A stretch of 64,000 bases of DNA, taken from Salinirubrum litoreum. Its GTDB lineage: Archaea; Halobacteriota; Halobacteria; Halobacteriales; Haloferacaceae. The notes beneath the pieces were generated by a model. It was not told where the DNA came from. It did not search any database and saw nothing but the letters and a program-made list of their open reading frames with translations. A program made the position numbers and the translations under genes. Location of the stretch: contig NZ_JAJCVJ010000002.1 in the NCBI RefSeq assembly GCF_020567425.1, forward strand, positions 1 through 64,000. The letters are read 5' to 3'. Below are positions 15,091 through 63,121 of this stretch, piece after piece (the first letter of the stretch is position 1; each line of letters begins with the position of its first letter).

Positions 15091-15149
15091 GATGCAACGT
15101 CGCGAGGCGTGTCACAACCGACCGTCCCCTCCCAAGTCAGGTTTCGTCA

Positions 15150-15226
15150 CAACAGCCTTGTTGAACTCCCCACTCGGTGAGTGGATTCAGCAATCCTACT
15201 GAATATACGGCGTAAGTCAGTCACCC
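15150..15226 (-). repeat. IS6-like terminal repeat, degenerate solo copy
   Basis: CCTTGTTGAACTCC ... CTACTGAATATACGG ... CAGTCACCC keeps the block order and spacing of the repeat at 13626-13694, in the same orientation, and sits just upstream of the transporter gene at 15272. Confidence 0.4.
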
Positions 15227-15271
15227 GAGAGACTCGGAATCTACTTCCACCCGTTCGAAGATTAGACACAC

Positions 15272-15970: not shown

Positions 15971-16086
15971 CGAACGGCAGTTCCACGTACAACCGAGTTA
16001 GCTCTTGGCGTGACTAACTCTTCATCTACTGCTTACTCAGAATGTGTCACGCACTTGCTGTAACGACCCACTGTATCCTCTCACGT

Positions 16087-16899: not shown

Positions 16900-17819
16900 G
16901 GCGCCACCTCGTACTCCTCAGCGAGTTCCAGGAAGTCCTCCCACTCGGGAAGTCGAGCCGTCCGCTGGGCACCGCTGGTGTCGAGATACGTGTAGAGGTT
17001 GTCGACGACGTCGTCGACGCCGTACTTGGTGGCTTGGACTCGGAGTTCGTCGCGGTCGATGTCGACGTGACTGAGCAGGAGCAGACAGTATGACTGCGTT
17101 CGTGCGCCCGAATCGACCACGAGCATGTGGCAGCACAACATCTCCGGCGAGAGTTCGCTCGTCGCCTCTGAATAGAGGTAGTACCGACGGTCACGTGCCA
17201 ACAGCGGGAGACCGTATCGCTGGAACTGGTCTGGGCCTGTCGGAATGAAGTGTTCGTCAGCGATTTCTATCGTCGTCTGCACAAGGAACTCGCCCAGAGA
17301 CTCCCACAGAATCGTGTAGGTGTCGGTCTGTGCTTCGACAGTCTGACGGTGGACGTGATGGGCAAGCTCACGAGCGAATACGCTCAGCTGTTCGAAGCCG
17401 TCGTTCAGTGCGTACGCCCCGTCGTCAGTTTGGTAGACGATTCCGCGATGCTGAAGCGGGGCTAGCGTACGGTGGACGGTGCTTCGGTGGACGTCAGCGC
17501 GACGTGCGAGTTCAGTCGCGGTCCGTGGGGTATCGAGGTAGTAGCACACACGGAGGGCTGCCCCTGACAACAGCTCCGGCCAATCGATGTGTGAATACTG
17601 CTGTGTGAGGTTCGTGAGTAACTCGAGTGCCTTCGCGTCCGACAGTCGAATCCGTTTTGTTTTCCCCTGTCGACGTGTCTCGACGAGACCAGCCGTTTCG
17701 AGCCGCTCAACGAGTTCTGAGGTGTAGCTGAGACTCCGATTGAGATTCGTTGCAAGGTCAGAGACCGTCTGCTCACCGTGGAGGGCTGTAAGGGCGCGAA
17801 CCTCACCTTCTGTGAGCAT
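16896..17819 (-). CDS. Double winged-helix regulator, partner of nucleotidyltransferase
   Basis: 307 residues with two wHTH units: residues about 1-65 (GEVRALTALHGEQTVSDLATNLNRS...LVETRRQGKTKRIRL) and about 100-145 (RTATELARRADVHRSTVHRTLAPLQHRGIV). The C-terminal half is an alpha/beta domain similar to that of AbiEi-type antitoxins (DEHFIPTGPDQFQRYGLPLL). It precedes the nucleotidyltransferase with a four-base overlap. The start is at MLTEGEV because a direct repeat and a TATA-like TTTATATATT lie immediately upstream, leaving no room for a longer protein. Confidence 0.75.
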   Translation of the reverse strand: MLTEGEVRALTALHGEQTVSDLATNLNRSLSYTSELVERLETAGLVETRRQGKTKRIRLSDAKALELLTNLTQQYSHIDWPELLSGAALRVCYYLDTPRTATELARRADVHRSTVHRTLAPLQHRGIVYQTDDGAYALNDGFEQLSVFARELAHHVHRQTVEAQTDTYTILWESLGEFLVQTTIEIADEHFIPTGPDQFQRYGLPLLARDRRYYLYSEATSELSPEMLCCHMLVVDSGARTQSYCLLLLSHVDIDRDELRVQATKYGVDDVVDNLYTYLDTSGAQRTARLPEWEDFLELAEEYEVAP

Positions 17820-35335: not shown

Positions 35336-35408
35336 AGTCCTGTGGTGTAGTGGCCAATCATGTGAGCTTCTGGGGCTCACGACGGAGGTTCGAATCCTCC
35401 CAGGACTA
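35336..35408 (+). tRNA. tRNA-Gln (anticodon CTG)
   Basis: A 73-base cloverleaf: acceptor AGTCCTG/CAGGACT, short D stem GTG/CAT, anticodon stem TGAGC/GCTCA around loop TTCTGGG (anticodon CTG), T stem GGAGG/CCTCC around TTCGAAT, discriminator A. No intron, and no CCA in the gene. tRNA genes are common integration sites, but I found no repeat of its 3' end elsewhere in the window. The next 240 bases (35409-35648) show no gene. Confidence 0.92.
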
Positions 35409-41494: not shown

Positions 41495-42496
41495 ATGCCT
41501 ACTCACGGTGTGATGCCCTACAATTTTCAACTGAGGAAGAAGGGGGATAAAGACAAACTCTGGGACCTAACCAACCTCCGGACACATGACCCAACGCTTT
41601 CCGACAATCACATCTTGGATATATTGGAGGATTTCTTACAACAGGTAACCGGTAACCTGGACAAAAATAAGGATGACGAGAAGGCAGTCGTCGTGAAAGA
41701 TTACAATGTCGACAAGAGCAACAACCTGGTTGAGGCGATCATCTCGACTGGCGATTTCGGATATCGTTCGGAACTCAGAGACGTGAACAGTGGGCAAGTC
41801 ACTCATAATAAGTCCACGAGCGAAGCAGAGCTAATTCCCTACTACCTCTCAATGTGGATTCCAGAGACGGTCAGTGGAGATCTGTATGAAAGCGGTCAGC
41901 GTGGTATCATGGTCTTCCAGCGAATCAATGGGAGAAGCATCATGACGCGGTTTAAAAAGCGGTTCCACTCATTCGCGCTCACTCATGACGACTGCAACAC
42001 AATGCTGGAGATGAATCCGATTACCAGACAGGAAGTTCTTCGTAAGGTTCTGCAATCTCAGAGTGTGAAGCGGATCGAGATCGAGGTGGACGAGGTCCCA
42101 GCGGACACTGAAAAGGAAGTCCAGTACATTGAGGGGATGGATACACACGACGCAGAGACTCAGTCAATTGTACTCAAACCGAAGCGAGGCGGCTCTCTTC
42201 TGCCAATAAAGAGTATTGCCCGTCAACTAAAACGAGACGGTGGGAGCTTCGCTCAGGTCGTATCAGACGACGTTTTGGAACTGAAAACTACAATTAAAAA
42301 CGAACACGGGAAGAAAGAAACATTCTCGCTGATCGACGACAAACTGAGGATGCGGAAGGAACTGGATCCCAGCCAAAAGAATCTCAATGGTGGGCTACCA
42401 ACAACTAGTTACTTGGCTGACCAAGCCGCACTGATGACCAATCAGGTCTTGCCACAAAATATAGTTAAAACGCTGAACTATTCAACAAAGGTATGA
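41495..42496 (+). CDS. RexA-like cytosolic protein, first gene of a two-gene candidate exclusion system
   Basis: 333 residues. No family is certain, but the order of segments recalls phage lambda RexA: an N-terminal DNNHxL-like stretch (LSDNHILDILEDF), a beta-rich middle (GIMVFQRINGRSIMTRFKKRF), an I-x-P-x(n) segment (EMNPITRQEVLRKVL...VKRIEIEV) and a C-terminal block SIVLKPKRGGSLLPIKSIARQL...LELKTTIKNEHGKKETFSLIDDKL comparable to RexA's DIVIKPKFKRDIKKVAKDI region. It is followed after 4 bases by a four-helix membrane protein. Lower GC than the flanks. It has no cysteines forming a zinc site and no signal peptide. The RexA relation is inference. Confidence 0.6.
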   Translation: MPTHGVMPYNFQLRKKGDKDKLWDLTNLRTHDPTLSDNHILDILEDFLQQVTGNLDKNKDDEKAVVVKDYNVDKSNNLVEAIISTGDFGYRSELRDVNSGQVTHNKSTSEAELIPYYLSMWIPETVSGDLYESGQRGIMVFQRINGRSIMTRFKKRFHSFALTHDDCNTMLEMNPITRQEVLRKVLQSQSVKRIEIEVDEVPADTEKEVQYIEGMDTHDAETQSIVLKPKRGGSLLPIKSIARQLKRDGGSFAQVVSDDVLELKTTIKNEHGKKETFSLIDDKLRMRKELDPSQKNLNGGLPTTSYLADQAALMTNQVLPQNIVKTLNYSTKV

Positions 42497-47484: not shown

Positions 47485-48786
47485 ATGACGAAGACGTGGC
47501 TACTCAACACCATCCCGTCACACTGGGATCACTACTACGAAGGACCAGATACGGACGACCACCCCGAACGACACCACAACCAGCCGTGGCACGGCATCCC
47601 CGCAGGTGGTAGCTCACCAGACCCGAGTGAACTCAACCCCGGAGATCTCCTCATCATCAGGGTCAACGGCGAGGGCGTCCGGGCGCTGTGGACGTTCAGA
47701 GAAGCACGACGCGTCGACGATCAGTCGATTCTCCCACCCGACTGGCGCGACCACGAAGGGGATGAGCGAGACTACGAGTGGATCATCTATTGCGGGGAAG
47801 CTCCGGCTCGACGGTTCGATGAGACCTACTCCGAAGAGTGGAACGAGTCGCCAGATCTCCACTATGCGGCACTGACAGGGACGGCGAAGAAGGGCGATAG
47901 CGTCGTCCAGCCGTACGTCGAGTTCCTCCTGGAGAAGGACATCCCGAGTGCAGCTCGTGAGGCACTCCTCGAAGTCAGCCAGGAGCGTACCGCACAGTCG
48001 ACACCCGGTGACAGCGGCGGACGCTGGTCTCGTGAGGAGTACATCCTCGCACTCGACCTCTATCTCAACCATCCGGAGATCACGCACGACGACTCAGATC
48101 CGGACGTCCAGGACGTTGCAACCCTCACAGGAAGATCGTCGAACTCGATCGCGCTCAGGCTTGCGAACTTCCGTCATCTCGATCCCGAGGGAACGGAAGG
48201 GATGTCGAACGTGGGTTCGGATTGTCGGAATATCTGGGAAGAGTTCTACGGGCAAGAAGACGAGCTCGCGTACAGAGCCGAGGAGATCAGAGATGACCTC
48301 GGTGGGGGCCAGACTAGCACGTCGACGTCGGGGTCGAGTACGTCCATGTCAACTGTCTCTGGGACGGAGACAGTAGAGACTGGAGAGACAACCTCGACAC
48401 AGACGGTTCGGCGGGGGCAAGCGAAGTTCCGTGCTGCCGTCAGGGAACGGTACGACGACCAGTGTGTCCTCTGTGACATCGAGAAGCCGACGTTACTGGA
48501 GGCAGCGCACATCCTCGAGTGGGAGAAGTTTGAGGGCGAACGGGGAGATCCCGCAAACGGGCTCCTCCTCTGTCGGAACCACCACCAGGCCTTCGAGCGG
48601 GACCTGTTCACGCTCTCAGAAGAGTACGAGATCGTGCCGCGGCCCGACCTGACGTTTGAGAGTCAGTGGTTGCGAGAGACGATCACAGATCGTGCAGGAG
48701 AGGCAGTAGAGTTCCCCAACGACCCGCCATCGAGTGAGTATCTCGCTCAGTACAACGAGCGACTTGCTTGGGTGGACGACGAGTGA
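47485..48786 (+). CDS. HNH endonuclease with PUA/EVE-like and SANT-like domains
   Basis: 433 residues, three parts. Residues 1-130 are an EVE/PUA-type domain (TWLLNTIPSHWDHYYEG...LNPGDLLIIRVNGEGVRALWTF), thought to read modified bases. About 178-255 are a SANT/Myb-like helical unit (RWSREEYILALDLYLNHPE...GRSSNSIALRLANFRHLDPEG) seen in related restriction proteins. After a Ser/Thr-rich linker, the HNH nuclease (about 325-380) has CVLCDIEKPTLLEAAHILEW and NGLLLCRNHHQAFERDLF. It is probably a type IV, modification-dependent restriction enzyme, independent of the HNH gene at 20441. Confidence 0.85.
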   Translation: MTKTWLLNTIPSHWDHYYEGPDTDDHPERHHNQPWHGIPAGGSSPDPSELNPGDLLIIRVNGEGVRALWTFREARRVDDQSILPPDWRDHEGDERDYEWIIYCGEAPARRFDETYSEEWNESPDLHYAALTGTAKKGDSVVQPYVEFLLEKDIPSAAREALLEVSQERTAQSTPGDSGGRWSREEYILALDLYLNHPEITHDDSDPDVQDVATLTGRSSNSIALRLANFRHLDPEGTEGMSNVGSDCRNIWEEFYGQEDELAYRAEEIRDDLGGGQTSTSTSGSSTSMSTVSGTETVETGETTSTQTVRRGQAKFRAAVRERYDDQCVLCDIEKPTLLEAAHILEWEKFEGERGDPANGLLLCRNHHQAFERDLFTLSEEYEIVPRPDLTFESQWLRETITDRAGEAVEFPNDPPSSEYLAQYNERLAWVDDE

Positions 48787-48954: not shown

Positions 48955-51519
48955 CTATAATACAGACTCTACGGCCCTACGTTTACCAGGAGGGAGAAAT
49001 TCAGCTCTGTTATCGAAAATGTGCTCGATTGTGTTTGTCGATTCACCCGCGTCCCGTACTTCGCGTATCGCCTCCGGACCAGCATACAAGATAGATCGAG
49101 CCAGTATCTCCACAACGGCCTCTCGAAGCCGTGACTCCGAGAGGTAGCGAGAATTTGCGTGACGTCGTAATCGAGCGCTATTTTCTATTGTCTCAATGAG
49201 AGAGGTGGTAGCGTCGGTGATCTGGGTCGTTAATCTGGTGAGATCCTCACTACTGAATAACCTCGCAGAAGGGTAGCCAACAGGGCAGCATTCGTTTATC
49301 AGTTGTTCGAATGCCCAGCCGTACTGTTTGTGATATTGATCAACATCATCCGCGAGATGGGCGTCCATCACGATCGCTGCAAACAGCAGGTTCGGAAGCA
49401 AGTTAGACTGGATCTCTTTGAAGATTTCTTCAGGTACCTCGGAGGGAGATTTGCCAAGTTTCAGATTGTACAAGTACTGTTCCAGTAAACTCTGAACCCG
49501 ACCCTCGGAGCGATCAGTGTACACGTCATGGAGACAGTTGACAACGTCTTGTGTCGGAACCGTTGGATCCGGAACTGCCGAATCAAGGATCAGCAACTGG
49601 AGCGAGACAGAATTGATTGCCCGTAATCGATGACTAACGGCTGTTGCGCAAGGCTCTGATTGGGAGGTCTGCCTAACGTAGGTCCGGAGCTCTTCCTGCC
49701 AGTTTTCCAGATAGGTTACCAACAGATCATTGGGATCATGACTTGACCCCGTATTCCAGGCGGTCAGTCTGAGGCCCCCCCGTGGTCCGCTGTCCGACTC
49801 CTCGCGGAGTCCGCTGGGTTCAGCAGGAGTATCTGCATCGCTCCGATTGTTCAGAGCTTGGAGTAGTGCTGACATTGAGTCGCGGATCGTTTCCTGATCT
49901 TCTCCCTCACTGAGATACAGTCCAAATACCTGCTCAGGCACCGCTGTCGTACCGGATTCGGTGAGTTCCTCAGCCGTTGCTGTATTACTGTCCGGGGTGT
50001 AGACTTGGAGCCATCGCGGATTCGATGTGGTCCCATCAATAACAAGCCGAGCGACACCCCCCAGTCTGAATGGCCCATTCGCTTCCTGCTCGACGTGGCG
50101 ACTTGAATACTCGAACGCAAGCCGCTGATCGCTCGACTGTGATTCGATTCCCTCGGTCTGATTCCACTCAAGATCTATCGGCGAAAGTCCGTAGGTGTCA
50201 GTTGGCGCATCCTGACGAGCTCCGATCTGGAGTGTGCCCTCACCTGATTCGAGGGCTGACTTAAGTTCTGGAGACACATCTCCACGGAGTTTGACTGTCC
50301 CACCATCGAACGATCCATATCGGTGGTAGCTAACGTTTGAGAGACTCACTACCGGGCCGGCCTTTTCTGTTGGAGTCGGCTCACGACTCTCGAACAAACC
50401 GTTGAGATCCGCCGGTTCGAAATCTTCGGCAGTTGTAGGAATGGCTTTTTCAAATGGATTTGCTTCAAGTAAATATGCGAATCCATCGAGTCTCGGCTTC
50501 CGACGGAAAAGCGCCGTCTCGATATTCCCTCCGTTCTTTGCTGAAGAGAGCAGGGCAGCCTGCGAGGCGTTCGGGCTACCACTCAAGCAGTAGGTGGCCT
50601 TCTCAGTCCGGAAGACAAGCAGTTTACCGTGGACGTAGCGGTGGCTATCATACTCGAGTGCAGCCGTACCGTCTCGTTGCAACCATGTGGCAAAGGCATC
50701 CGAGTCAAGTTGGCTTCTGTCTCTCTGCAGCCAGAGTGTCGTCTCAATCTCTTTGGACATGAAGTACTCCGGGACGCGCATTGAGGTTCCATAGAACGGA
50801 GCGATAATGTCCACCGATTGGAGCTGTTCTCCTCGATCCTCGATCGCCGCAATGGCCTGTTCGAGGATTGGCTGAGAGAGTGAATGGAATAGTCGTGTTG
50901 CGTCCGCAGTCGAGGTCAGCTGGGTAGTATCGATATCATGGACCCATGCGGCAGCTCCGAGCGTGTGGTCGATTGTCTGTCTCGTCGCCGAATCGACTGT
51001 TCGACCAAATTCGCTATTGAGGAGTGTATGGAGGTACTCTTCGAGATCGCAGTAGAGCCTCGCTTGCATAGCTCGTGTAGCCGCTGACTCTGATCCGGTC
51101 TCGTCACCGTCGGGATCAGCAGGAAGCGTAAACTGAGTTGCAATTTCTTGATTTGTTGTCAGTCCAGGATGAGTCAGGTTCCCGCTTCCGACCATGACCT
51201 GGACACGATTCTGACCGGTAAGCAGGTGCACCTTCGGATGGAAGGTTCGGTTGGTCGGTGGACGGATTGGACTGACGTGATAGGCTTGGCCAAGTGCAGT
51301 GCCAGCGGTCTGTCCAAGTGTCTCTGTTGGCTCATCAGGTGCAATTGAATCCTCATACTGGCGCTCATCCATCAGGACCGCTGTTCGAATATTCCGTCGT
51401 TTCGATCGGAGAGCTGGAAGGGCGGACCGCTCGAAGAACCCTGGCGAAAACGGGAACGTCGTCAGTAACGCCCCCTCCATGACACGCTGATCACTGGCTA
51501 GCCATTCGAGCAGGCTCAT
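48955..51519 (-). CDS. Phospholipase D-superfamily nuclease, 854 aa, operon with 643-aa partner
   Basis: Two HKD-type half-sites are visible: FHPKVHLLTG...VMVGSGNLT (His94-x-Lys96, Gly111-Ser-Gly-Asn114) and YVHGKLLVF...CLSGSPNAS (His297-x-Lys299, Gly314-Ser-Pro-Asn317). Together they would form one PLD active site acting through a phosphohistidine. The remaining 500 residues are a beta-rich middle (about 400-560) and a helical C-terminus with no recognised domain. The start overlaps the partner's stop (ATGA). PLD nucleases occur in DISARM and other defence systems, but this architecture is not one I can name. Confidence 0.8.
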   Translation of the reverse strand: MSLLEWLASDQRVMEGALLTTFPFSPGFFERSALPALRSKRRNIRTAVLMDERQYEDSIAPDEPTETLGQTAGTALGQAYHVSPIRPPTNRTFHPKVHLLTGQNRVQVMVGSGNLTHPGLTTNQEIATQFTLPADPDGDETGSESAATRAMQARLYCDLEEYLHTLLNSEFGRTVDSATRQTIDHTLGAAAWVHDIDTTQLTSTADATRLFHSLSQPILEQAIAAIEDRGEQLQSVDIIAPFYGTSMRVPEYFMSKEIETTLWLQRDRSQLDSDAFATWLQRDGTAALEYDSHRYVHGKLLVFRTEKATYCLSGSPNASQAALLSSAKNGGNIETALFRRKPRLDGFAYLLEANPFEKAIPTTAEDFEPADLNGLFESREPTPTEKAGPVVSLSNVSYHRYGSFDGGTVKLRGDVSPELKSALESGEGTLQIGARQDAPTDTYGLSPIDLEWNQTEGIESQSSDQRLAFEYSSRHVEQEANGPFRLGGVARLVIDGTTSNPRWLQVYTPDSNTATAEELTESGTTAVPEQVFGLYLSEGEDQETIRDSMSALLQALNNRSDADTPAEPSGLREESDSGPRGGLRLTAWNTGSSHDPNDLLVTYLENWQEELRTYVRQTSQSEPCATAVSHRLRAINSVSLQLLILDSAVPDPTVPTQDVVNCLHDVYTDRSEGRVQSLLEQYLYNLKLGKSPSEVPEEIFKEIQSNLLPNLLFAAIVMDAHLADDVDQYHKQYGWAFEQLINECCPVGYPSARLFSSEDLTRLTTQITDATTSLIETIENSARLRRHANSRYLSESRLREAVVEILARSILYAGPEAIREVRDAGESTNTIEHIFDNRAEFLPPGKRRAVESVL

Positions 51520-53447
51520 CTGGATGCCTCCATGAAGCTCCCGATGAATGCCCGACCAGACTCAGTCAGTGACAACGAATCCAGACGATTGGTTTCGAGG
51601 AGATCGAGCTCATAGCCGATATCACCGATTCGGTGCCATTTGATTGTAGGTGCGTTCGGTAACCCTCGGTTGTACAGGTCGCCATCATTGACCTGATAAT
51701 CAAAAGTCAGTGTTCCATCGGTGTTCAGGTGAAGCAGCTGTGGACTCCGGCCATTCGAATCACCGATCTTCTCGAAAAGGCGCTCGAAGTATTCAGTCAG
51801 TGTCCACCGCTTGGCGAATGCAGCGGTCGTGTAAGCAAACGGTGATCCCTCCCAGTCCGCACGGTTCGTTGCAAGCGATGGGAGCATCTCGCAGTCATTC
51901 GCAACGTCCCAGCACGTTTGTGGCCCGGGATGGTCATGTGCCGTTTTGAACCATGCCAGAAACGGTTCGAGAGGGTCAGTGACAAAATATTCTTCATACC
52001 TAGTACTGACCCGAGCCAGTAGCACTGCCGCGAGGGCAGCCACTTTGCGGTACTCAGCGACCGTACTTGCATCGGCCAGTACCGACTGCAATTGATGCTT
52101 GTAGGCGCGTTCGCTGTGGCCGGTGAGGCTAAAGCACGACTCCTCGGACGTCTCAGTATCCGCTGCAACAAGGCGGGAGGTAACATCGGCCCAAGACATA
52201 TCCGTCAGACTGGGCCCATCGGGTAGCGTCGATTCGAAATTTCCGGTTGGTGCCTCCCCAAAGTAGACTGCATCACGCACGTCATTCAACGTTGACCTAT
52301 CCGCCCCGGGATCGATAGCAAGGTTGATTCCTTCTAATGCGCGGCCGGCAACCGAGTCGAACTCATCATGGTCAAATAGGGATGATAACACATCTGATGG
52401 GAAGATGGGTTCCAATTCTCGGATTACCCCTTGGACTGCTAGAAACAGTGCTTGAATTCCATATGACGCATATTCAGCATGTATCAAGAACCGCCACACT
52501 TCACGCGCATCAGTCAGGTGCTCGAAAGACGGCGATGCGGTTGGCCGTCGATCAGCCCAATCTCCGGTCGCTAACAGCAGAGTCAACGAGGATCGAACAA
52601 ATTGATGCCGTCCTTCCTCAAAGAACTGTTCTAGATTTTCACTCCCCATCTCCACATCAGCTGCACTGACGCCTAATAATTCGGCCTCAATACTTGCTGT
52701 CTCAAGTTGCTTAGAATCGGTCAGCAGGAACTCCCGGAGGTGCAACTGCTCCGGTCCCGACTCCTGATCGAACTGAAGAGAATCATACTCGACTGTTGGC
52801 GACACTAGATACCAGTATGCATTCCGCAGAATCTCGCGCTCCTGTGAGGAGATCTGGCAGAAGCACCCGGAATTACAGACTCGCTCTATCAACGATCTTG
52901 ATAGCGTTTCAGCTTCGACTGCTGCCTGCACGGATTCAAACTCAAAGGTCACGGCGGCGTCATAGGCGTCTGCAAGAGCCTGTCCAAGAGGTGTTACTGT
53001 CTGGTCGTTTTCGAGCAAAAGGAGGTTGTAAAAGACACCCGAATAATACGAGTCGAATCGAGCTGTATCCTCACTCCCGATAGAAACGGTCTCAGCGTCA
53101 ATCGGGACCTCGTCAATACTATCATCAGCCAACGCTTCCGAAAGCTCATCAGGAGGGTTCAGAGTCCCATTTGTGCTCGTTCCCTCTTCTGGACAGGCAT
53201 GCGGATCGCTGCCGAGAAGCACCACTTTCTCGTAGAGTGCACGATCAGTTGGCGCATCGCCGTCAAGGTTCGCCGTCACCCAACACCAAAATGAGAGATA
53301 CCTGAGTCGCTGGGTGACCGCCATGCTGAGTATCGGGTGAAACATCCGGGACTGGAGAGTAGATTCGGTCGATTCGGCCCCGAGTGGATCCAAGACTCGC
53401 ATCGTCTCGGACTGACTAGTCCACTGCGGGTCCAGTGTACGTGACAT
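51516..53447 (-). CDS. Large unknown protein (643 aa), partner of PLD nuclease
   Basis: No recognised family. The N-terminus contains QSRMFHPILSMAVTQRLRYLSFWCWV, the middle is helical and acidic (SGCFCQISSQEREILRNAYWY; IHAEYASYGIQALFLAVQGVI), and the C-terminus is probably a winged helix or PUA-like unit (YELDLLETNRLDSLSLTESGRAF). Cys residues in VCNSGCFCQ could bind metal. It is first in the operon, reading away from the AddB-like gene, and is translationally coupled to the PLD gene. It could be the sensor or DNA-recognition subunit. Confidence 0.7.
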   Translation of the reverse strand: MSRTLDPQWTSQSETMRVLDPLGAESTESTLQSRMFHPILSMAVTQRLRYLSFWCWVTANLDGDAPTDRALYEKVVLLGSDPHACPEEGTSTNGTLNPPDELSEALADDSIDEVPIDAETVSIGSEDTARFDSYYSGVFYNLLLLENDQTVTPLGQALADAYDAAVTFEFESVQAAVEAETLSRSLIERVCNSGCFCQISSQEREILRNAYWYLVSPTVEYDSLQFDQESGPEQLHLREFLLTDSKQLETASIEAELLGVSAADVEMGSENLEQFFEEGRHQFVRSSLTLLLATGDWADRRPTASPSFEHLTDAREVWRFLIHAEYASYGIQALFLAVQGVIRELEPIFPSDVLSSLFDHDEFDSVAGRALEGINLAIDPGADRSTLNDVRDAVYFGEAPTGNFESTLPDGPSLTDMSWADVTSRLVAADTETSEESCFSLTGHSERAYKHQLQSVLADASTVAEYRKVAALAAVLLARVSTRYEEYFVTDPLEPFLAWFKTAHDHPGPQTCWDVANDCEMLPSLATNRADWEGSPFAYTTAAFAKRWTLTEYFERLFEKIGDSNGRSPQLLHLNTDGTLTFDYQVNDGDLYNRGLPNAPTIKWHRIGDIGYELDLLETNRLDSLSLTESGRAFIGSFMEASR

Positions 53448-53699
53448 TCAATCTAGATGCTTATAGCCAAGATAAAAATCCTTTGATATATTTTATAATA
53501 CAAGAGAACTTAGCTTAAGCAACTTTCGTCAAACCCTTTAACTCCAGTTAATCAGGGGTCTACAGCGACTCCACTATTATTGACACGGTTAGCGCGAGGT
53601 TGATGAGTATACCGAGAGACAACAGCCCATCCCAGAGAATGAAGTCAGGTTCTTATTCCTTCTATCAACCTTTATTAGTTGACAGCAGTCTTTTCTGTC
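53448..53699. promoter_or_regulatory. AT-rich divergent promoter region
   Basis: 252 bases separating the leftward PLD operon from the rightward helicase-nuclease operon, with TATA-like ATATATTTTATAATAC (53488-53503) on the left side and TTTATTAGTTG (53671-53681) about 27 bases before the GTG at 53700. It is much more AT-rich than either operon. No gene is supported inside. Confidence 0.5.
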
Positions 53700-56285
53700 G
53701 TGTCATTTCCTCGGGCCAAACCGATCGACGCTCTCTACGAGGAGGTCGCCGAATACGACCTCGTCGTGGTGCCGGACGCGCCACTGGCCAGCGCGTTGAA
53801 CCGCCGGATCGACAGGCCACACCTCGGCTCGTTCGCGATAACGCCGCGTCGTCTCGCGGCGGGGCGCCGGGAAGAAGCCGAGGACAGGATCGCCTTCCTC
53901 GAACTCGTCGAGCAGACAGACCTGGACTGGAAGCGCGCCGCGTACGCCATCGGGAACATCCTCCAGTGCTGGGAACACCAGGGCCGTCTCGACGCGATTC
54001 TCGAGTACGACGAGTACGTCGACGAGGCGACACGGCAAGCCGTCCAGCACATCGCCGACCTCGAGACGACGTCGCGGCGACTCACCGAGTATCGAATCGA
54101 CGACGGTCAGGACGTCGCCGTCGTGGGCGCCGACCAACTGACCCAGCTAGAGCGCTCGATTCTCCCCGAACACTACGAGACGTACGACACGTTCGGGGAG
54201 CAGGAGTTCGAGCAGCCCCCGTTCCACATCTTCGACTCCTCGACGGCGATCGTCGAGACGGTCGTCGATGCCGCTACCGAGGAGACTGCCGGCGACGTCG
54301 CTGTCGTGCTCGATCAGGGGAGTGAGTTCTCTGCGCTCATCGAGTCTGCCTTCGAGGCCGAGGACATCCCGTTCTACGGTGGCCCCGGCTTCATCGACCA
54401 GCCGGACCACCGCACGTTCGTCCAGTTGCTTCGTGCTGCACACGGCGGCACCGATACCCGTGTCGGCGAGATACGGCCGCTGCTCGCACGGCTCGACGTT
54501 TCTCTGGACGTCGAACACGACGAGAAACGGCTGTACGAACTCGACGACCGTGATCTAAATTGGCTCGTCGATTTCTGTGAGCGAATCGATTCCCGGACGT
54601 TCGCCGAAGCACTCGACAGGTTCGAGGACAGAGCAGACTGCCAGCTCGAGACGTTTCGTGAAGAGCTGGAGACGCTCGGCATCGCCGGTACACGCGCGAC
54701 CGAGCGCGCCGTGGATCGACTCATGTTCTACCTCCAGAGTTACGAGGTCCCCGTCGACCGTGAGAACGAGGGTGTGTTGCTCGCGGACGCGAAGTCGGCC
54801 GCCTACGTCGACCGCCCGGTCGTCTTCTACCTGGGACTGGACGAGGACTGGACGCACTCGGCGCCGCGCCGACCGTGGGTCGACCAGGACGCCCAGTACA
54901 CGCGCAACATCCACCAGTTCCAGCTGCTCCTCCAGAGTGGGACGACCCAGTACTACCTCGTGCAGGATGCGAAGGGTGGTTCACCCGTGACGCCGTGTCT
55001 CTACTTCGAGGAACTGCTCGACGAGGAGTTCGAGCGCTTCAGCGATCTGGACTCGGAGACGCACACGCGACGATTCGATCGGTCTGGTGATGGATTCGGG
55101 AAGGAGTCGGTCGACGCCACCGTCACCGAGGTATCGACCATCAGTCAGTCGAGTCTCGGGAGCTACGTCAATTCGCCTCGGGACCACTTCTTCGGGAGAC
55201 TCGTCGACGGCCCGGACAAGGACTACTTCAAAGAGGGGAATCTCTTCCACGACTTCGCCGAGTTCTACATCCACCACCCGGAGTTCGTCGACGAGGACGT
55301 TATCGACGATACTGTGGAGTACATTCTCGACGCGACGCGGCCGTTCGTCCGGTCGGTCGACGAAGCGACGAGGCGGACGAAGTACCGCGCCGGCCTGGAG
55401 ACGATCACCACGTTCTTCGATGCGAACAGGCCGGTCGACGGCGAGTTCCTCACCTCCACGAGCCAGTGGGGACAGAACATCTTCGCCGAGCGCTTCGACA
55501 AACCCGTCGACTCGCCCATCACGGAACGGTGGTTCGAGAACGAGGACCTGGGGCTGAAAGGCAAGATCGACCTGATTCACTCGCCGTCACGGTTGGTAGA
55601 CCACAAGAGCGGGAGCCGCAAGAGTGCCTCCCGAGTCGTCAAGCACTCGGCACTCGATCCGCCGAGTGACACACCGAACTTCCAGGCACTGCTGTACCTC
55701 ACTCACTGGCGGTCACAGTACCCCGACCAGGAACTCGAGTTCACCTTCTTCCACTTCCTCGAGACGCTCGACGACGTCGTCACCGGCGAGGTCGACCTCG
55801 ACGATACACTGACGACCGTCTCCTACAAGCCGCAGACGTTCGCCGAGTACGCGCGCTCCGAGGCGGTCTTCGACGAACTCGTCGCAGACGGCGCGAACGA
55901 CTGCCAGAAGACCCTGAGCCAGGTCGACTACGAGGACTACGCGGCCGTCTTCGACGACGTGGCGCTGCCAGACACGACGGACAGCGACGAGCTGATCGCG
56001 TCGGCGTTCGGCGAGCGATTGACGGCCCGAATGAAAGACCGCGTTGGCGACTACAAATACGTCGAGTCGGGGTGTAAGCAGGCGATGCGGCAGTTGACGC
56101 GCGTTCGTGGACAGACCTTCTTCGAGGACGACCTCGACGCGTTCGAGACGTTCGTCGACGAACGTCTCGAAGAGTTGAATCGGCGACGTGCCGGCGAGGA
56201 ACGGTTCCCGGTCGACGGACTCGGCGGTGAGCCGAACTACCGCTACGTGGACAACCGCGACCTCCTCCTGGAGGGTGACCGATGA
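53700..56285 (+). CDS. AddB-like PD-(D/E)XK nuclease / inactive helicase subunit
   Basis: 861 residues. The N-terminal part resembles the degenerate helicase fold of AddB/RexB-type subunits (YDLVVVPDAPLASALNRRI; VAVVGADQLTQLE; VVFYLGLDEDW). The C-terminal RecB-family nuclease has GLKGKIDLIHSP (Asp near 621) and RLVDHKSGS (Asp-x-Lys near 634-636), preceded by QSSLGSYVNSPRDHFFGRL, where iron-sulphur AddB proteins have Cys-Pro and this has Ser-Pro. The GTG at 53700 is preferred because a TATA element lies about 27 bases upstream; a TTG at 53679 would overlap that region. It is coupled to the helicase gene by a four-base overlap. Confidence 0.8.
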   Translation: MSFPRAKPIDALYEEVAEYDLVVVPDAPLASALNRRIDRPHLGSFAITPRRLAAGRREEAEDRIAFLELVEQTDLDWKRAAYAIGNILQCWEHQGRLDAILEYDEYVDEATRQAVQHIADLETTSRRLTEYRIDDGQDVAVVGADQLTQLERSILPEHYETYDTFGEQEFEQPPFHIFDSSTAIVETVVDAATEETAGDVAVVLDQGSEFSALIESAFEAEDIPFYGGPGFIDQPDHRTFVQLLRAAHGGTDTRVGEIRPLLARLDVSLDVEHDEKRLYELDDRDLNWLVDFCERIDSRTFAEALDRFEDRADCQLETFREELETLGIAGTRATERAVDRLMFYLQSYEVPVDRENEGVLLADAKSAAYVDRPVVFYLGLDEDWTHSAPRRPWVDQDAQYTRNIHQFQLLLQSGTTQYYLVQDAKGGSPVTPCLYFEELLDEEFERFSDLDSETHTRRFDRSGDGFGKESVDATVTEVSTISQSSLGSYVNSPRDHFFGRLVDGPDKDYFKEGNLFHDFAEFYIHHPEFVDEDVIDDTVEYILDATRPFVRSVDEATRRTKYRAGLETITTFFDANRPVDGEFLTSTSQWGQNIFAERFDKPVDSPITERWFENEDLGLKGKIDLIHSPSRLVDHKSGSRKSASRVVKHSALDPPSDTPNFQALLYLTHWRSQYPDQELEFTFFHFLETLDDVVTGEVDLDDTLTTVSYKPQTFAEYARSEAVFDELVADGANDCQKTLSQVDYEDYAAVFDDVALPDTTDSDELIASAFGERLTARMKDRVGDYKYVESGCKQAMRQLTRVRGQTFFEDDLDAFETFVDERLEELNRRRAGEERFPVDGLGGEPNYRYVDNRDLLLEGDR

Positions 56286-59161
56286 CCGACCTCAAACCGA
56301 ACGACCAGCAACGGGAACTCATCGACAGCACGGACGGGCTCTACCTCGTCGACGCCGGCGCCGGGACGGGCAAGACGTTCACCGTGACGCGGCGATACGC
56401 CAACGTCGTCTCTCAGGACGGCGTCGACCCTGACGACGTCCTGCTGGTGACGTTCACGAACAACGCCGCGGCCGAGATGAAAGAGCGGATCGTCGGGAAC
56501 TGTCACTACGGGATGCGCGAACTCGCAGACGCACCGATCCAGACGTTCCACTCGCTGTGTCACGATCTCCTTGAAGAGCACGGGCACGCCGCGCCGACCT
56601 ACCTCGGCATCGACGACCGCATCACTGGCTCGACGCGGATCGTCGAGGACGAACTCGTCGAACAGGCGCTGTTCGGCGAATTCATCGACCGATTCAGCGA
56701 CGACCACCCCGAGTACGACGACCACTTCCGTGCGCTCTCGAACCCGGAGGAGCTACTCGACCTCATCAACCAACTCGCAGCGAAAGGAGTATTCCCCGAC
56801 GCCGAGGGGTGGTACAGAGACAGCGAGCGCCACCTCGACGGGGACTTCGCGGCGTTCGCTCGACAGTTCGACGAGTTGAACGAACCACGGAACGGCGGGA
56901 GCAAGCAGTCGATACTCCGGTCGAAGCTCTACCAATACGGTCAGAACAAGACCTACCTGCCGGATGCGCCCGAGAAGTCGGAGATTCGCGGGAGCGGCAA
57001 GCAGGTGCCCGACGAACTCGCGTCGCGGGTTTTCGAGGAAGACCGCGAGGAATTGAAGCAGTTCGTCCACGATGTCTACCACGAGTACCTGCGGTTCGCG
57101 CTACGGCGGAACTATCTGAACTTCGGGATGCTCCAGCTGTTCGCGTTCGTCCTGCTCTGTGAGAACCACGAACTGCGCGAGGACGTCGCGTTCGAGTACG
57201 TGATGATCGACGAGTTCCAGGACTCCAGTGAGATCCAGTTCAAACTCGCGCTGTTGCTCTCGGGGACGAACAACATCTGCGTCGTCGGGGACTGGAAACA
57301 GAGCATCTACAGCTTCCAGTACGCCGACGTCGACAACATCGTCGAGTTCGAGAGCCGACTCGACCGGTTCGTCGACCAGCTGAACAGCGATCGGGAACGC
57401 GTCTCGTTCTCCACGAAGCCCGTCACCACCATCGAACTCGTCGAGAACTACCGCTCCACCCAGGAGATCCTCGACTTCTCGGAACACGGCCTGCGAGTTC
57501 CCGCGGCGAATCGCGACGACGTCGACGTTGAGTCCATTAACGACCGAATCGTCTCACTCCAGTCGAACGCGGACCACGAGAACACGACCATCGAGGCCAT
57601 CCAGAGCGACGAGGAGCAGGAGGCAGTGCTGGCGAAGATTCAAGAGATCGTCGGCAACGAAACGTACCGCGTCGAGGACGAAGACGGTGATCTCCGGGAA
57701 CCACGGTACGGGGACATCGCCGTGCTGACGCGCACTCGTGACTTCGGCCGCGAGTTGCTCGGGACCGCCGAGGAGTACGGCTTGCCGATGGCCTACGAGG
57801 GGGGTATCGAACTGTTCAGGACCGATCAGGCGAAACTCCTGCTCGCCTGGCTGCGCATCCTCGAAGACGACGTCGACCGCGGCTGGGCGGTCACACTGGA
57901 GCGAGCCGGCTACACACTCGACAAGGTCGACGCGATCCTCGAACGCGAGACGTATCCCGAGAACATGGTCGAGTTCCGCGAAGCGCTCCGGGGGATGGAG
58001 ACGCTGGGCGGCGTCGCACGGCGTGTGTTCGCCCGCTACGGCTACGACGGGCCGACCGCCGACGTCGTCCTCCACACGCTCCAGTCCGTCCACAACGCGA
58101 CGACACAGACCCGAGGTGACCTCATTCGGTTCATCGAACGGTCCATCGAGGCCGGCAGCACCCACGAAGTGCAGGCGGGTGCGGGGACGAACTCGGTGAC
58201 CGTCCAGACGATTCACGCCACGAAGGGCCTCGAGTATCCCATCGTCATTCTCGCGAACATGAACAGCGGGCGCTTCCCGCCGGGCGGCGGTGGGAGCGGG
58301 GTCATCAGCTACGACGACCCGGTCGGCTTGCGCCAGCGGAAGGTGTACTCGGAGGAGGCCCACGGACTGCCACACGTCTACGACGACTGGCGGGCCGACG
58401 TCCTGCGGAAGTGCCTGCCTCGCGAGTACGACGAGGAACGCCGGCTTCTGTACGTCGCCATCACACGCGCCGAGAGCCACGTCGTCTTCACTGCTGGCGA
58501 GGAGCCGAACACCTTCATCGAGGAACTCCCGGTCGAGGTGGAGAGAGTCACGCCCGACGTCACAGAGACCACCCAAGAGAAGACCGAGCAGACTGCCCTC
58601 CAGGTCGAGATGTCTGTTCCAGCGGGCCCACGAGGCCACACGCCGCACACGCTCATGCGCGATGACGTCTTCGAGGACGTCGAGGGTGGCCGGGGGACCG
58701 AGTTCGGCACGCAGGTCCACGACTTCGCCGAGGCGTACGCACTCGATGAGGGTGTCGAGCCGCGGAATACTGACGAAGAACACGTCGAAGCGTTCCTCGA
58801 CGGCCTCGATGGCGACCTGCTGGTCGAAGAAGACGCCTACCTCCCGCTGTCTGTCGGCAGTGAGCGCGTCACGATTTCGGGGGTCGTCGACCTCGTGCAC
58901 GTGACACCGGATCGGGTCGAGATTGTCGACTACAAGACCGACCGTGGGCGACACGGTGAGGCGGAGTATCGCAAGCAACTGAGTGTGTACTACCGGGTCG
59001 CGTGCGAGGTCTATCCCGAGCGCGAGATCACTGCCAACATCTTTTACACGGAGACTGGAGATCGACAGGAGATCGAACCACTCTCTATCGACGAACTACG
59101 GCATCTCGTCAAGACAGTAGAACCAACTACAGGAGGCGGTGGTCAGGCGAGAGAGCAGTGA
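56282..59161 (+). CDS. AddA/RecB-like UvrD helicase with C-terminal nuclease
   Basis: 959 residues, superfamily 1A helicase: Walker A DAGAGTGKTFTV (24-35), motif Ia LVTFTNNAAAEMKERI, Walker B VMIDEFQDSS (about 305-314), motif III VVGDWKQSIYSFQYAD, motif IV LVENYRSTQEI, motif V VQTIHATKGLEYPIV and motif VI LLYVAITRAES. A RecB-type nuclease domain ends the protein (TISGVVDLVHVTP, Asp near 871; VEIVDYKTDRG, Asp-x-Lys near 882-884). With the preceding AddB-like subunit it forms a dual-nuclease helicase complex for processing linear DNA ends. Such pairs are uncommon in archaea, and its island location suggests defence or an acquired repair module. Confidence 0.9.
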   Translation: MTDLKPNDQQRELIDSTDGLYLVDAGAGTGKTFTVTRRYANVVSQDGVDPDDVLLVTFTNNAAAEMKERIVGNCHYGMRELADAPIQTFHSLCHDLLEEHGHAAPTYLGIDDRITGSTRIVEDELVEQALFGEFIDRFSDDHPEYDDHFRALSNPEELLDLINQLAAKGVFPDAEGWYRDSERHLDGDFAAFARQFDELNEPRNGGSKQSILRSKLYQYGQNKTYLPDAPEKSEIRGSGKQVPDELASRVFEEDREELKQFVHDVYHEYLRFALRRNYLNFGMLQLFAFVLLCENHELREDVAFEYVMIDEFQDSSEIQFKLALLLSGTNNICVVGDWKQSIYSFQYADVDNIVEFESRLDRFVDQLNSDRERVSFSTKPVTTIELVENYRSTQEILDFSEHGLRVPAANRDDVDVESINDRIVSLQSNADHENTTIEAIQSDEEQEAVLAKIQEIVGNETYRVEDEDGDLREPRYGDIAVLTRTRDFGRELLGTAEEYGLPMAYEGGIELFRTDQAKLLLAWLRILEDDVDRGWAVTLERAGYTLDKVDAILERETYPENMVEFREALRGMETLGGVARRVFARYGYDGPTADVVLHTLQSVHNATTQTRGDLIRFIERSIEAGSTHEVQAGAGTNSVTVQTIHATKGLEYPIVILANMNSGRFPPGGGGSGVISYDDPVGLRQRKVYSEEAHGLPHVYDDWRADVLRKCLPREYDEERRLLYVAITRAESHVVFTAGEEPNTFIEELPVEVERVTPDVTETTQEKTEQTALQVEMSVPAGPRGHTPHTLMRDDVFEDVEGGRGTEFGTQVHDFAEAYALDEGVEPRNTDEEHVEAFLDGLDGDLLVEEDAYLPLSVGSERVTISGVVDLVHVTPDRVEIVDYKTDRGRHGEAEYRKQLSVYYRVACEVYPEREITANIFYTETGDRQEIEPLSIDELRHLVKTVEPTTGGGGQAREQ

Positions 59162-59193: not shown

Positions 59194-60519
59194 CTAGGCG
59201 TACTCGGTTCGGTCGTGAACGGACTCTGAGGCTCCCTCGATCGCGTTCAGATACTGGCGGGCGCTCTCTTCGAGAGCCGTGACGTAGTCGTCGTACGTAT
59301 CTACGTCGGGGTTGGTGGCGAGTTCGATCGATCGCAGTGGGTACGTTCCCATCACGCTCGACTCTTTTCGCTCACCACCCGTCTGCGGATAGACGATCGC
59401 ACCGGGAGCTTCGAGGGCCAAAATATACGAAGTCAGCTGGTACACGTCGCCTGAAGAGGTCGATCCTGTTTTCCACTTGGCGTCAGCCACGGTGACTGGC
59501 GTGCCATCGTCACGAGTCACGAGTACGTCGGGGCGCATTGTTACTGCATGTGGGCCTTCGACGAGGTTCGGTATCGAGGCCTGTCCTTCTACCTGGAGAT
59601 TGCTGATGTTCTTCGCTGCCGCTCGAAATGCCCGTTCGACTATCCGCTCGAACACGTCGTTCATATTGACGAATAGCGCCAGCGAGCGGCGCTCTCCCGC
59701 CCGCACGTCTTCGAAGAACTCGCGTGCGAGGATCAACCGTGCCAGTTCGAGTAGTGCCTCGTAGTGGTCGTTCAAGCGTGAGAGCTCGATCTGCCGAAGG
59801 TCGGTCATCGAAACCGGTTCCACAGAAACGAACTCCCGAAGCTGTTGCTCCTGCTGTTTCAGTCGACTAGATAGCTTCTCATTCTGCACGAGCAGCAAGA
59901 GAATCCGTAGTGAGGCGAGAACCGTCTGGTTCAACAGGTTGTCCGTAGTGAATTCGTCGTACTCGACTGCGAAATCGGTCGTCACGGCGGTCGGTCGCTG
60001 GAGCTGTCGCTGTACGTCTATTCGGCCTTGAACGTGGTTCCGAATCTCGCGCCTCCTGGTGTAGTCACGGTGAAGCCCGTGATCGAGGACGGTCTGGAGT
60101 TCAGCCTGGAAGAGCACGCCGAGTGCATCGAAGAACGACGATGCACTGGTGAACGACGTCTCGAAGTCGAACGTCTCCACGGGTGTATCGAACGCGTACT
60201 GTAGCGCCCAGAGCAGCCGTGTCACCGTCTGTTTTGGCGTCACTTCGATCTGTAGCCCGCTGGGAAGCGTGATCGTTCCCACGTGAGAACCGGTTTCGAT
60301 GATCACCAAACCGTCGCTGGTGAATGAGGTGTCGAGCGGCGTCGTCTGGCCCAGATCGTCGAGTGACTCCAGGAACGTGATGTCTCTCTGGCCGAGTTCG
60401 ATCGGGTGAGAACTGTCGTGCTCTTCGAGCGAGACGACGTCTCCATCACGGTTCGATCCGGCCCCGCTTTCTGCTCGGATCGGTGACCCGAGTCGACCGG
60501 TGGTGACGGAGTCACTCAT
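59194..60519 (-). CDS. mcrC: McrC nuclease subunit (system 2)
   Basis: 441 residues of classical McrC type. The N-terminal wing (FTSDGLVIIETGSHVGTITLPSGLQIEVTPK, LLWALQYAFDTPVE), a helical middle (VQGRIDVQRQLQRP; DNLLNQTVLASLRILLLLV) and the C-terminal PD-(D/E)XK nuclease (MRPDVLVTRDDGTPVTVADAKWK at about 327-349) are all recognisable, as is the trailing VYQLTSYILALEAPGAIVYP. It starts 8 bases inside the end of mcrB. Convergent with the helicase operon, 32 bases apart. Confidence 0.92.
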   Translation of the reverse strand: MSDSVTTGRLGSPIRAESGAGSNRDGDVVSLEEHDSSHPIELGQRDITFLESLDDLGQTTPLDTSFTSDGLVIIETGSHVGTITLPSGLQIEVTPKQTVTRLLWALQYAFDTPVETFDFETSFTSASSFFDALGVLFQAELQTVLDHGLHRDYTRRREIRNHVQGRIDVQRQLQRPTAVTTDFAVEYDEFTTDNLLNQTVLASLRILLLLVQNEKLSSRLKQQEQQLREFVSVEPVSMTDLRQIELSRLNDHYEALLELARLILAREFFEDVRAGERRSLALFVNMNDVFERIVERAFRAAAKNISNLQVEGQASIPNLVEGPHAVTMRPDVLVTRDDGTPVTVADAKWKTGSTSSGDVYQLTSYILALEAPGAIVYPQTGGERKESSVMGTYPLRSIELATNPDVDTYDDYVTALEESARQYLNAIEGASESVHDRTEYA

Positions 60520-63121
60520 CTCGGAACACCCGCGCTTCTTCGACGAACGACCGAAGGCCTCGTTCGAGAGCCGTAACCTCCTCCTCGGTGAGTTCGTCTA
60601 TGGCGAGTGTAGGTTCGGTGAAGGAGCCATCGTCTCCTGCGTCCGGGTTCCAGTTGTGCTCGTAGCCGTCGATGTCGTCGAAGACGTGGCCTGCTCGTTC
60701 GATGAATTCCCGAGTGAGTGGGTTCTCGTCCCGGTCGTGTAACCAATTCCACCGGAATCCGATTTCTCCCTTCTGATCGATCTTGATGATTCCGACACCG
60801 GGATCGACATCGTCCGACTTCACCATCACAGACGCGTTGTTCTCGCCTCGGCCCGCGTCCAACCAGCCGACCTCTTCACCGACGTCGAGTACTCTGTCGA
60901 TCTGTGCTGCCGACTCGTCGTTGAGCGTCGACGGTAGTCGTTGACGGAACGTGTCGGGTGTTCGTTCCCCGGCAGCCCACGGATCTTCCGCATCTTGCTG
61001 TACTGTTTCGGTAGTACCCCCATCAGACTCAGCAGCGACAGATCGAGGGAGTGGGACGGGATCGTCTATACCCGCGAGGTCGCACAGTGCACTGTACAGG
61101 TCGTGGACGTCGAACGATCGAATCCGTTCGGTGTCCCAGTCTACCAGTCGATCGCCCGTCTCACGCAGGAGCTCGTCACGAAGGCGGTCGAACTGACCGA
61201 AGTAGTATTCCTCGAGCTGTGGGAGGATGTCGTAGCGCCAGGCATCGGAAAGCTCCTGTGCCGAATCGTGGCCGAGAAGATGCGTGTGTCCCAACTGCTT
61301 TCCCTTCCCGAGTTGCGGGGCTTCCAAGATACGTTCGTTCAGCGTTCGAACTGCGAGAACACTGGCGCCCAAGAGACGTTCTCTGGGTTGGACTGCATCA
61401 GAGCGTTCTGTGACAGCGCTTCGTGGCTCGGTGTTTTCCGTGTCGTACTCCCCGAACACCAACTCCATGTTCGGCGGGAAGTCGATGAACCGGAACCGCC
61501 GACGTAGTGCAGTGTCGACCAGCGCGATCGACTGGTCGGCCGTGTTCATCGTCCCGATGACGTAGAGGTTCGACGGAATCGTGAACGTCTCCCCCGAGTG
61601 GGCAAGCTCGGTCTCGAAGCTATCCCGCTTGTCGGCTTCGAGGAGCGTGATCACTTCACCGAGTATCTGCGCGAGGTTTCCGCGGTTGATCTCGTCGATG
61701 ATGAGGACGAACGGCGGTGGGCTCTCACCGTCCTCAGTCGCTCGCAGGGCGTCGGATGCATTCTCGGCGATCTTCTTCAGGACACCGTCTTCGACTCGGT
61801 AGGAGACGCTCCCGGAGTCGGTCGCATCGGCAGTCAACCCCTCGATGAAGTCCTCGTATGAGAACGAGGGGTGGAACGTGACCGACCGAACCTGACTCTG
61901 TGTCGGTTCGCCTTCGGTTCGCTCATTTACCCACCAGTCGGCGAACCGCTTCGCCTCGAACGTCTTACTCGTACCAGGTGGACCGTAGAAGACGACTTGC
62001 TTCGCGATGTCGAGCTGGCGTTCGACTACGTCAGCTATCGGCGGTCGCTCGGGCCGGTTCGGTTCGGTGATTCCGTTGAGAGTGTGGTAGCTCTCAAGGA
62101 CTGACTCGAACTTCGAGAGTACGTCCCCCGCAGTCACGTCTTCTTCGGTTACCCGTTCGAGGTCGCGTTGCTGCTTCCACTCCCCACCACGCTTCTCGTC
62201 GCCAACGTGGAGTCCGTACGAGAGGCGATCCCCGTGGAACCCCAGATACAGTTGGTACGCTTCAGTCTGGCTCTCGTGGGTAGCCGGAAATATCGCTAGC
62301 CATGCGAAGTCGTCGAGTTTGTGACGTGGCTCTGAGTGATTGACGATATGCTGGGTCGACTCCAATGCGCCACTCTGCTCGAGAAAAAAGTCGGATAACG
62401 TCTGAAGGTACGTATTCAGTCGAGGCTTGTAGTAGTCGTAGTATAGCTGGCCGACCGTAGTGAACGGCGTATAACCCTGAGCGATGTTCTTCTCGTGACT
62501 CTCGTTCTCTTCGTCGATGAACGTAACCAGTTCGTCGATCGTTAACCCGCTTTGCGATTTAATCGACTGAAGTGCTCGGAAACGGACTCCGTTGATCTTG
62601 TCGTCGCCTTCGTACTGGTTCGCTTTGGCCGTCAGATAGGGTCCCGGAAGACGTCGAATTGCCTCGAAGAAACTCTTCGTCTCCTCAGGTCCCTCTTCCA
62701 GGAGTTCCTGTCGGTACTCGTGAATTCGCTGTGAAGTCTGCCGAACGGATTGGAGAAGGAATGTTGCGAAGGATTCGGGAACAGGATCGGCACTGATATG
62801 CTCGAAGAACCGTTCGAGGTCAGCAGGTTCGACACTGAAGCTGTACTGATCGTTGAGGTTTTTCGAGAGGCGCCTGACCAAAGTCTGATAGAGGCTCCGT
62901 TTTTCCGCAGCTGTTAGCGTCTCGATCGTCTCAACAGCTGCGTTGTTCAGTCGTTCTTCTCTCGCGGGTCCCCAATCAGCGAAATAACGTAGTACTCCCC
63001 GAAGTGCGGCTTCCGAGTAATCTGTCTCCTCGGTCGTACTCGGAACGGGAACGAGGTGATACGCGTTTTTCAGTTCTTGTGTATCAAAGTAATAGCCCTC
63101 AATTTCGAGTGTACTTGGCAT
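60512..63121 (-). CDS. mcrB: McrB GTPase/ATPase with DUF3578-like N-terminal domain (system 2)
   Basis: 869 residues. The N-terminal 360 residues contain a MrcB_N/DUF3578-like region (FAWLAIFPATHESQTEAYQL; HGDRLSYGLHVGDEKRGGEW). The AAA+ motor shows Walker A GPPGTSKT (about 378-385), the VTFHPSFSYEDFIEGL motif, Walker B VLIIDEINRGNLAQILGEVI and the McrB signature GTMNTADQSIALVDTALRRRF (about 523-543). A C-terminal extension (about 720-869, VMVKSDDVDPGVGIIKIDQK) is extra. The first gene of the operon, it is read leftward. Its N-terminal sensor is unrelated to that of system 1, so the two systems should recognise different targets. Confidence 0.92.
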   Translation of the reverse strand: MPSTLEIEGYYFDTQELKNAYHLVPVPSTTEETDYSEAALRGVLRYFADWGPAREERLNNAAVETIETLTAAEKRSLYQTLVRRLSKNLNDQYSFSVEPADLERFFEHISADPVPESFATFLLQSVRQTSQRIHEYRQELLEEGPEETKSFFEAIRRLPGPYLTAKANQYEGDDKINGVRFRALQSIKSQSGLTIDELVTFIDEENESHEKNIAQGYTPFTTVGQLYYDYYKPRLNTYLQTLSDFFLEQSGALESTQHIVNHSEPRHKLDDFAWLAIFPATHESQTEAYQLYLGFHGDRLSYGLHVGDEKRGGEWKQQRDLERVTEEDVTAGDVLSKFESVLESYHTLNGITEPNRPERPPIADVVERQLDIAKQVVFYGPPGTSKTFEAKRFADWWVNERTEGEPTQSQVRSVTFHPSFSYEDFIEGLTADATDSGSVSYRVEDGVLKKIAENASDALRATEDGESPPPFVLIIDEINRGNLAQILGEVITLLEADKRDSFETELAHSGETFTIPSNLYVIGTMNTADQSIALVDTALRRRFRFIDFPPNMELVFGEYDTENTEPRSAVTERSDAVQPRERLLGASVLAVRTLNERILEAPQLGKGKQLGHTHLLGHDSAQELSDAWRYDILPQLEEYYFGQFDRLRDELLRETGDRLVDWDTERIRSFDVHDLYSALCDLAGIDDPVPLPRSVAAESDGGTTETVQQDAEDPWAAGERTPDTFRQRLPSTLNDESAAQIDRVLDVGEEVGWLDAGRGENNASVMVKSDDVDPGVGIIKIDQKGEIGFRWNWLHDRDENPLTREFIERAGHVFDDIDGYEHNWNPDAGDDGSFTEPTLAIDELTEEEVTALERGLRSFVEEARVFRDE

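Follow-up and report, generated by a model that had tools for sequence, protein, structure and literature searches.

A recurrent pair of genes for a PLD-superfamily protein and its large partner in haloarchaea and on bacterial plasmids: a probable relative of the Azaca defense system

Do two large overlapping genes that lie among the restriction genes of Salinirubrum litoreum form one functional unit, and does this unit serve in defense? We considered this question for a window of 64,000 nucleotides, the whole stretch of DNA analyzed, for which an earlier note had regarded a new PLD-based defense system as plausible. That proposal is largely supported by the inheritance of the two genes as a unit and by their position in defense islands; a relationship to Azaca must be added to it. 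In our judgment the two genes, A and B, probably constitute a mobile two-gene Azaca-like defense module with ZacA-like and ZacB-like parts, devoid of helicase and methyltransferase.

Layout of the locus and the two proteins

Both genes are intact and are encoded on the minus strand. Gene A (51516..53447, 643 aa) is the first gene of the pair, and gene B (48955..51519, 854 aa), encoding the PLD-superfamily protein, lies downstream of it with a 4-nt start/stop overlap, ATGA (51516..51519, minus strand). An HNH nuclease gene (47485-48786) is convergent with B. On the other side, the AddAB-like pair (53679-59161) is divergent from A, and McrBC (59194-63121) is located beyond it. The 231-bp region between A and the divergent AddB-like gene (53448..53678) is AT-rich upstream of A and presumably contains the promoters. 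These coordinates confirm a coupled pair of large genes with the sizes given earlier and its location between restriction systems, adjoining a divergent AddAB-like operon.

Several other features of the window were observed. The convergent HNH gene encodes a 433-aa HNH_2 protein, the C-terminal part of which bears a weak similarity to restriction enzymes dependent on phosphorothioate, whereas the N-terminal half may be a modified-base reader. A tRNA-Gln(CTG) gene (35336-35408), upstream of a 695-aa McrB-like AAA protein (35649-37736), is a possible island boundary. A 333-aa protein (41495-42496) has a weak match (7e-5) to a type IV CRISPR Cas7-like model. No RNA families were found in positions 40000-64000.

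Protein B scores better than the curated cut-off of Pfam PLDc_2 (2.3e-7) and contains two HxK...GSxN half-sites, a feature of PLD-superfamily nucleases that is invariant in 32 pairs, which bears out its earlier description as a PLD-superfamily protein with both HKD half-sites. The first half-site covers residues 94-116 (HPK...GSGNLT; 51172..51240, minus strand) and has the form H94-x-K96...GSGN(111-114); the second covers residues 297-317 (HGK...GSPN; 50569..50631, minus strand) and has the form H297-x-K299...GSPN(314-317). Past the second half-site, counts over the 32 pairs reveal an N-x-E motif with a conserved acidic residue (residues 332-334; 50518..50526, minus strand). Ten residues (D51, H94, K96, N114, T116, H297, K299, G314, S315, and E334) are invariant in 32/32 pairs, and N317 and N332 are each retained in 31/32. 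The D of the canonical HxKx4D motif is missing in both half-sites. The AlphaFold model of B has a mean pLDDT of 47 and is confident only for parts of residues ~210-510, corresponding to the second PLD half and a predicted beta-sandwich (~390-510); the C-terminus is predicted to be helical. Foldseek with this model places SauUSI at the top and Nuc and BfiI lower, all of them PLD nucleases, with low whole-model TM-scores.

For protein A, searches of Pfam, PADLOC, and NCBIfam gave no match at E<=1, and profile searches against the PDB gave nothing credible. In particular, A showed no match to PIWI. Alignments and residue counts over the 32 pairs demonstrate a conserved N-terminal motif, PxW...DPLG...RLRYLSFWCW (residues 7-56; 53280..53429, minus strand), which is the stretch matching the ZacA model in relatives. 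At the other end, residues ~601-642 (LTESGRAFIGSF; 51522..51647, minus strand) form low-confidence AlphaFold helices that are winged-helix-like. In a Prevotella relative, the C-terminus matches the Pfam winged helix HTH_45 above the cut-off (8.6e-6), and T628 and G631 are nearly invariant in the 32 pairs. Thus, the family shows winged-helix signals, and a C-terminal winged helix in the window protein itself may tentatively be proposed. The AlphaFold runs for A and B used five sequences as input; the models of both proteins are poor (mean pLDDT 47 for A as well), so the domain assignments in A are tentative, and only the mostly helical character of this model is usable. The earlier description of A as lacking a recognized domain was right at the sequence level, though the family does carry the winged-helix signals.

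Co-inheritance of the genes and their neighborhoods

The distribution of the pair is sporadic. Among 391 Halobacteria, tblastn with A detected 13 places in 12 genomes, and a profile search yielded matches in 15 genomes, one of which (G313) has a decayed copy. In Halobacteria, B adjoins A wherever A is intact. In all 13 loci of the first haloarchaeal set, B is directly downstream of A with an identical 4-nt overlap, and it likewise adjoins A in the later-added L095 (1-nt overlap) and L114 and in Halorientalis (L038). In total, besides the window, the overlapping genes were encountered at 15 haloarchaeal loci and at 19 loci on bacterial plasmids, far beyond chance. In Halobaculum limi, A and B are 73%/70% identical to their window counterparts. 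For 17 of the plasmid loci (L042-L058) the search started from B, and a profile identified an adjacent A homolog in 17/17; one of them, L050, was first retrieved via A, though B matches there too. Two further plasmid loci (L116 and L117) also carry both genes, making it 19/19. A narrower B alignment in the genome-wide scan gave 4 loci. The plasmid hosts belong to Alpha- and Betaproteobacteria, Actinomycetota, and Bacteroidota, bacterial pairs being present, for instance, in Polaromonas and Roseovarius, and the carriers include conjugative and mobilizable plasmids. In 3/19 plasmid loci (L054, L057, and L116) the order is B-A and the pair is kept. No carriage of A/B was found in phage records; one pair is present in an IMG/VR contig derived from an isolate genome.

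Archaeal and bacterial members are homologous by profile-profile comparison, over ~490 columns for A (99.7% probability) and over the first 330 residues for B (99.9%). The tree distances of A and B correlate with r = 0.94 (31 pairs, 0/5000 permutations), and the correlation holds for archaea (0.98) and bacteria (0.92) alone. Both genes are under purifying selection, with dN/dS of 0.06-0.16 in close pairs, dS being near saturation in the comparison of the window with L014. The exceptions to pairing are a decayed A without B in G313 (L115, 9141-9897, A fragments split by stops) and a broken B without A in Haloquadratum (L041, 7578-9308). Both look like decay and suggest that loss of one gene accompanies loss of the other. 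Whether the two genes are conserved jointly had been named as a decisive point, and they do behave as a unit in both archaea and bacteria.

The pair is often surrounded by known defense genes. Model-verified McrBC is located near it in the window and at L016, L025, and L095; within 8 kb it is found at 3/13 first-set loci, compared with 0.05 expected (P ~2e-5, a rough estimate from nine McrC genes in 12 first-set genomes with 13 pairs, and somewhat optimistic because McrC was noticed before counting). Other haloarchaeal neighbors are a McrB-like protein (L017) and TmtA of Tiamat (L019). On the Myroides plasmid pFM-G13, A/B (L050, 7947-12064) interrupts a type I R-M operon and separates hsdS from hsdR. 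Elsewhere the neighbors include a type I methylase (L046), an HsdR-like protein (L047), a type III REase (L055), ZorC/ZorD of Zorya (L058), QatA/QatC (L052), and DrmD of DISARM (L053). Where helicases accompany bacterial pairs, they are of the HsdR, ZorD, DrmD, or type III kind, and the methylases that occur beside certain pairs belong to type I or III systems. No obvious defense neighbor is seen at some loci, such as L014 and L042. Location in defense islands, a second point raised earlier, is thus usual for A/B loci, with R-M, McrBC, Zorya, Qat, DrmD, pAgo, and TmtA among the neighbors, and this neighborhood is suggestive of a defense function.

The locus L023 is the sole one with a pAgo neighbor. 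Here a long pAgo and a 706-aa PLD protein (12465-17327), an APAP-like (pAgo-AgaP) locus, lie 2.3 kb from A/B, and two PLD-based modules stand side by side.

Relation to Azaca and other PLD-based systems

Azaca is listed with a PLD-like domain (PMC10952713), and its component ZacC is listed as an SF1/SF2 helicase (PMC12278908). According to a figure quoted in PMC13321033, Azaca is present in only 2/382 archaeal complete genomes. The window A does not match the ZacA model, and 2/13 archaeal A members do (best 0.0018). Most bacterial members match ZacA weakly (1.5e-5 to 0.012), always in the N-terminal part and collinearly. The ZacA model is selective, its single match in 391 genomes being itself an A/B pair. 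The ZacB model matches the window B at 3.5e-12 and 11/11 archaeal members, and the two are collinear (82-504 to 103-509 in Prevotella; 201-454 to 228-485 in L095, 8e-18). However, this model is unspecific, matching generic PLD proteins in 239/391 Halobacteria, and a ZacB match alone therefore means little; we rejected such matches as proof of Azaca. The extended collinear alignments and the ZacA matches carry more weight. Azaca calls that lean mainly on the ZacB model PDLC03829 of PADLOC may be inflated.

Since the window A has no ZacA match and ZacB is unspecific, the link to Azaca rests on relatives and gene order: relatives of A match ZacA and B is collinear with ZacB, which gives the pair the look of a distant Azaca relative with two genes. 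The differences are also clear. The ZacC helicase is absent from the locus, only short helicase-motif matches being found elsewhere in 12 pair-bearing genomes. The proteins are of other lengths, 405-667 aa for A against 396 positions of the ZacA model and 708-895 aa for B against 586 of ZacB. Judging from these sequence comparisons, A/B is probably Azaca-like rather than Azaca as defined. A literature search, which did not cover the original Azaca description, found no text naming ZacA, ZacB, or ZacC as the A/B pair. The comparison with PADLOC gave no complete system match, a result that the earlier note had recognized as capable of overturning its proposal if positive. Its statement that the pair matches no known system holds in that sense, and for DISARM as well, but must be qualified by the weak likeness to ZacA and ZacB.

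The pair was also compared with other PLD-based systems. In DISARM and Dpd, the PLD proteins are DrmC and DpdK, whose models weakly match B or its relatives, and DrmD adjoins the pair at L053; by contrast, the pair lacks the YprA/DUF1998 helicase, methylase, and deazapurine genes. The ten genes surrounding the pair in the window gave no match to DrmA, DrmB, or a methylase, and the match of B to DrmC was weak (2e-4). The restriction enzymes SauUSI, BfiI, and NgoFVII possess a PLD nuclease core, with a weak Pfam match of NgoFVII to B. Unlike SauUSI, B lacks both an SNF2 helicase and an SRA domain; unlike BfiI and NgoFVII, it has no companion methylase, and no methyltransferase belonging to the pair was found; in contrast to all three, it is encoded together with A. 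The PADLOC phage defense candidate PDC-M27 has a PLD component, M27B, that weakly matches B relatives (2e-6 to 7e-12); its match to the window B (5.6e-4) is limited to the HKD region, and A is unmatched.

In APAP, which combines pAgo and AgaP (PMC11442185), a haloarchaeal PLD protein is likewise encoded beside a nucleic-acid-recognizing partner, and the L023 pair adjoins such a pAgo/PLD locus. However, A is not an Argonaute, the pair has no long-A pAgo adjoining the PLD gene, and B and AgaP are remotely similar, sharing the PLD motif region only. The haloarchaeal nuclease AgaP is toxic alone and has been proposed to be restrained by its partner pAgo (PMC11442185).

Proposed function and alternative explanations

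Enzymes of the PLD superfamily bring two half-sites together in one active site and proceed via a covalent phosphohistidine, independently of metal and ATP. B would be a single-chain PLD nuclease whose half-sites combine intramolecularly into one such site, and its chemistry, by extension from the superfamily, would be the same metal- and ATP-free phosphohistidine chemistry. PLD proteins need not cut DNA, and the nuclease role of B is a prediction by analogy. A, mostly helical with winged-helix-like ends, would bind DNA and B, and most likely it keeps B inactive or positions it until some feature of an invader is met. Candidate triggers are modified bases, intermediates of replication or entry, and phage proteins; upon triggering of A, B would cut DNA. 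Since there is no methylase, the module would have to read a mark or state absent from the host or to stay off until infection. With AgaP and pAgo as a precedent, we favor A as the recognizer or restraint and B as the cutter. Somewhat more tentatively, A/B may be a separate two-gene system, widespread in archaea and bacteria and absent as a system from the catalogs searched, in which a hitherto undescribed family of helical winged-helix sensors controls an ATP-independent PLD nuclease with no helicase, methylase, or guide.

Two alternatives, both of which we regard as rather unlikely, retain defense and differ in the role of A. If the pair is a modification-dependent, type IV-like restriction system, A recognizes a modified base in DNA of foreign origin and guides B to cut it, and for that reason no protective methylase is needed. 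This agrees with the lack of a methyltransferase in the pair, the position of the window pair, with McrBC on one side and on the other an HNH nuclease distantly akin to phosphorothioate-dependent enzymes, the enrichment of McrBC near the pair, and the top fold match of B, SauUSI, which is a type IV PLD enzyme. However, searches of A revealed neither an SRA or EVE domain nor any other known reader of modified bases, and the neighbors could be independent members of the island. Alternatively, B could be a non-specific nuclease toxin held by A and freed upon infection, with death of the cell (abortive infection). With two overlapping genes, of which the partner gene precedes at most loci, the operon resembles many toxin pairs, and the toxicity of AgaP and its proposed restraint by pAgo offer a haloarchaeal parallel. 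On the other hand, A is far larger than the usual antitoxins, the B-A order also occurs, and the similarity of AgaP to B is remote and confined to the PLD motif.

The remaining explanations change the nature of the module. A housekeeping or repair pair unrelated to defense, acting, for example, in DNA-end or tyrosyl-DNA processing or in lipid metabolism, agrees with the marginal match of the B profile to the HKD region of tyrosyl-DNA phosphodiesterase (0.002), and PLD chemistry is also used outside defense. Against this, the distribution is sporadic, the pair is carried by plasmids and occurs in reversed gene orders, it is inserted inside an R-M operon, and it has defense neighbors; we consider a housekeeping role improbable. 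Nor do we give much credence to a four-gene system in which the AddAB-like proteins process the ends of invader DNA and A/B completes or guards this processing, an explanation that appears very improbable. AddA homologs occur widely in the family (in 22/35 of the genomes tested), and in four (G000, G197, G075, and G384) of the seven genomes that have both A/B and AddAB-like genes, the latter lie within 15 kb of A/B, which by a simple estimate would occur by chance with P ~2e-7. Besides the window, these AddAB-like genes are found at L114 (13109-18540), L018 (166-3042), and G384 (C1:2075874-2078738). However, their orientation and distance vary, no close AddAB homolog was found at bacterial pair loci, and a close AddA homolog (E <= 1e-50) is absent in 7/15 pair-bearing genomes. 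On the last ground, we rejected AddAB as an obligate third and fourth component; these observations suggest that haloarchaeal AddAB marks a shared island or a hotspot of defense-gene insertion and is not a part of the module.

Returning to the Azaca-like module, if the pair indeed defends its hosts, it would be a minimal two-gene nuclease system common to archaea and bacteria, and gene A would represent a new family of sensors or regulators that has no Pfam or NCBIfam model. As such a system would have neither a motor nor a gene for marking self, how it distinguishes its own DNA from that of invaders would be a sharp and testable question. The pair possibly reveals a separable ZacA/ZacB core of Azaca, and models of A and B, once added, would uncover many unannotated loci.
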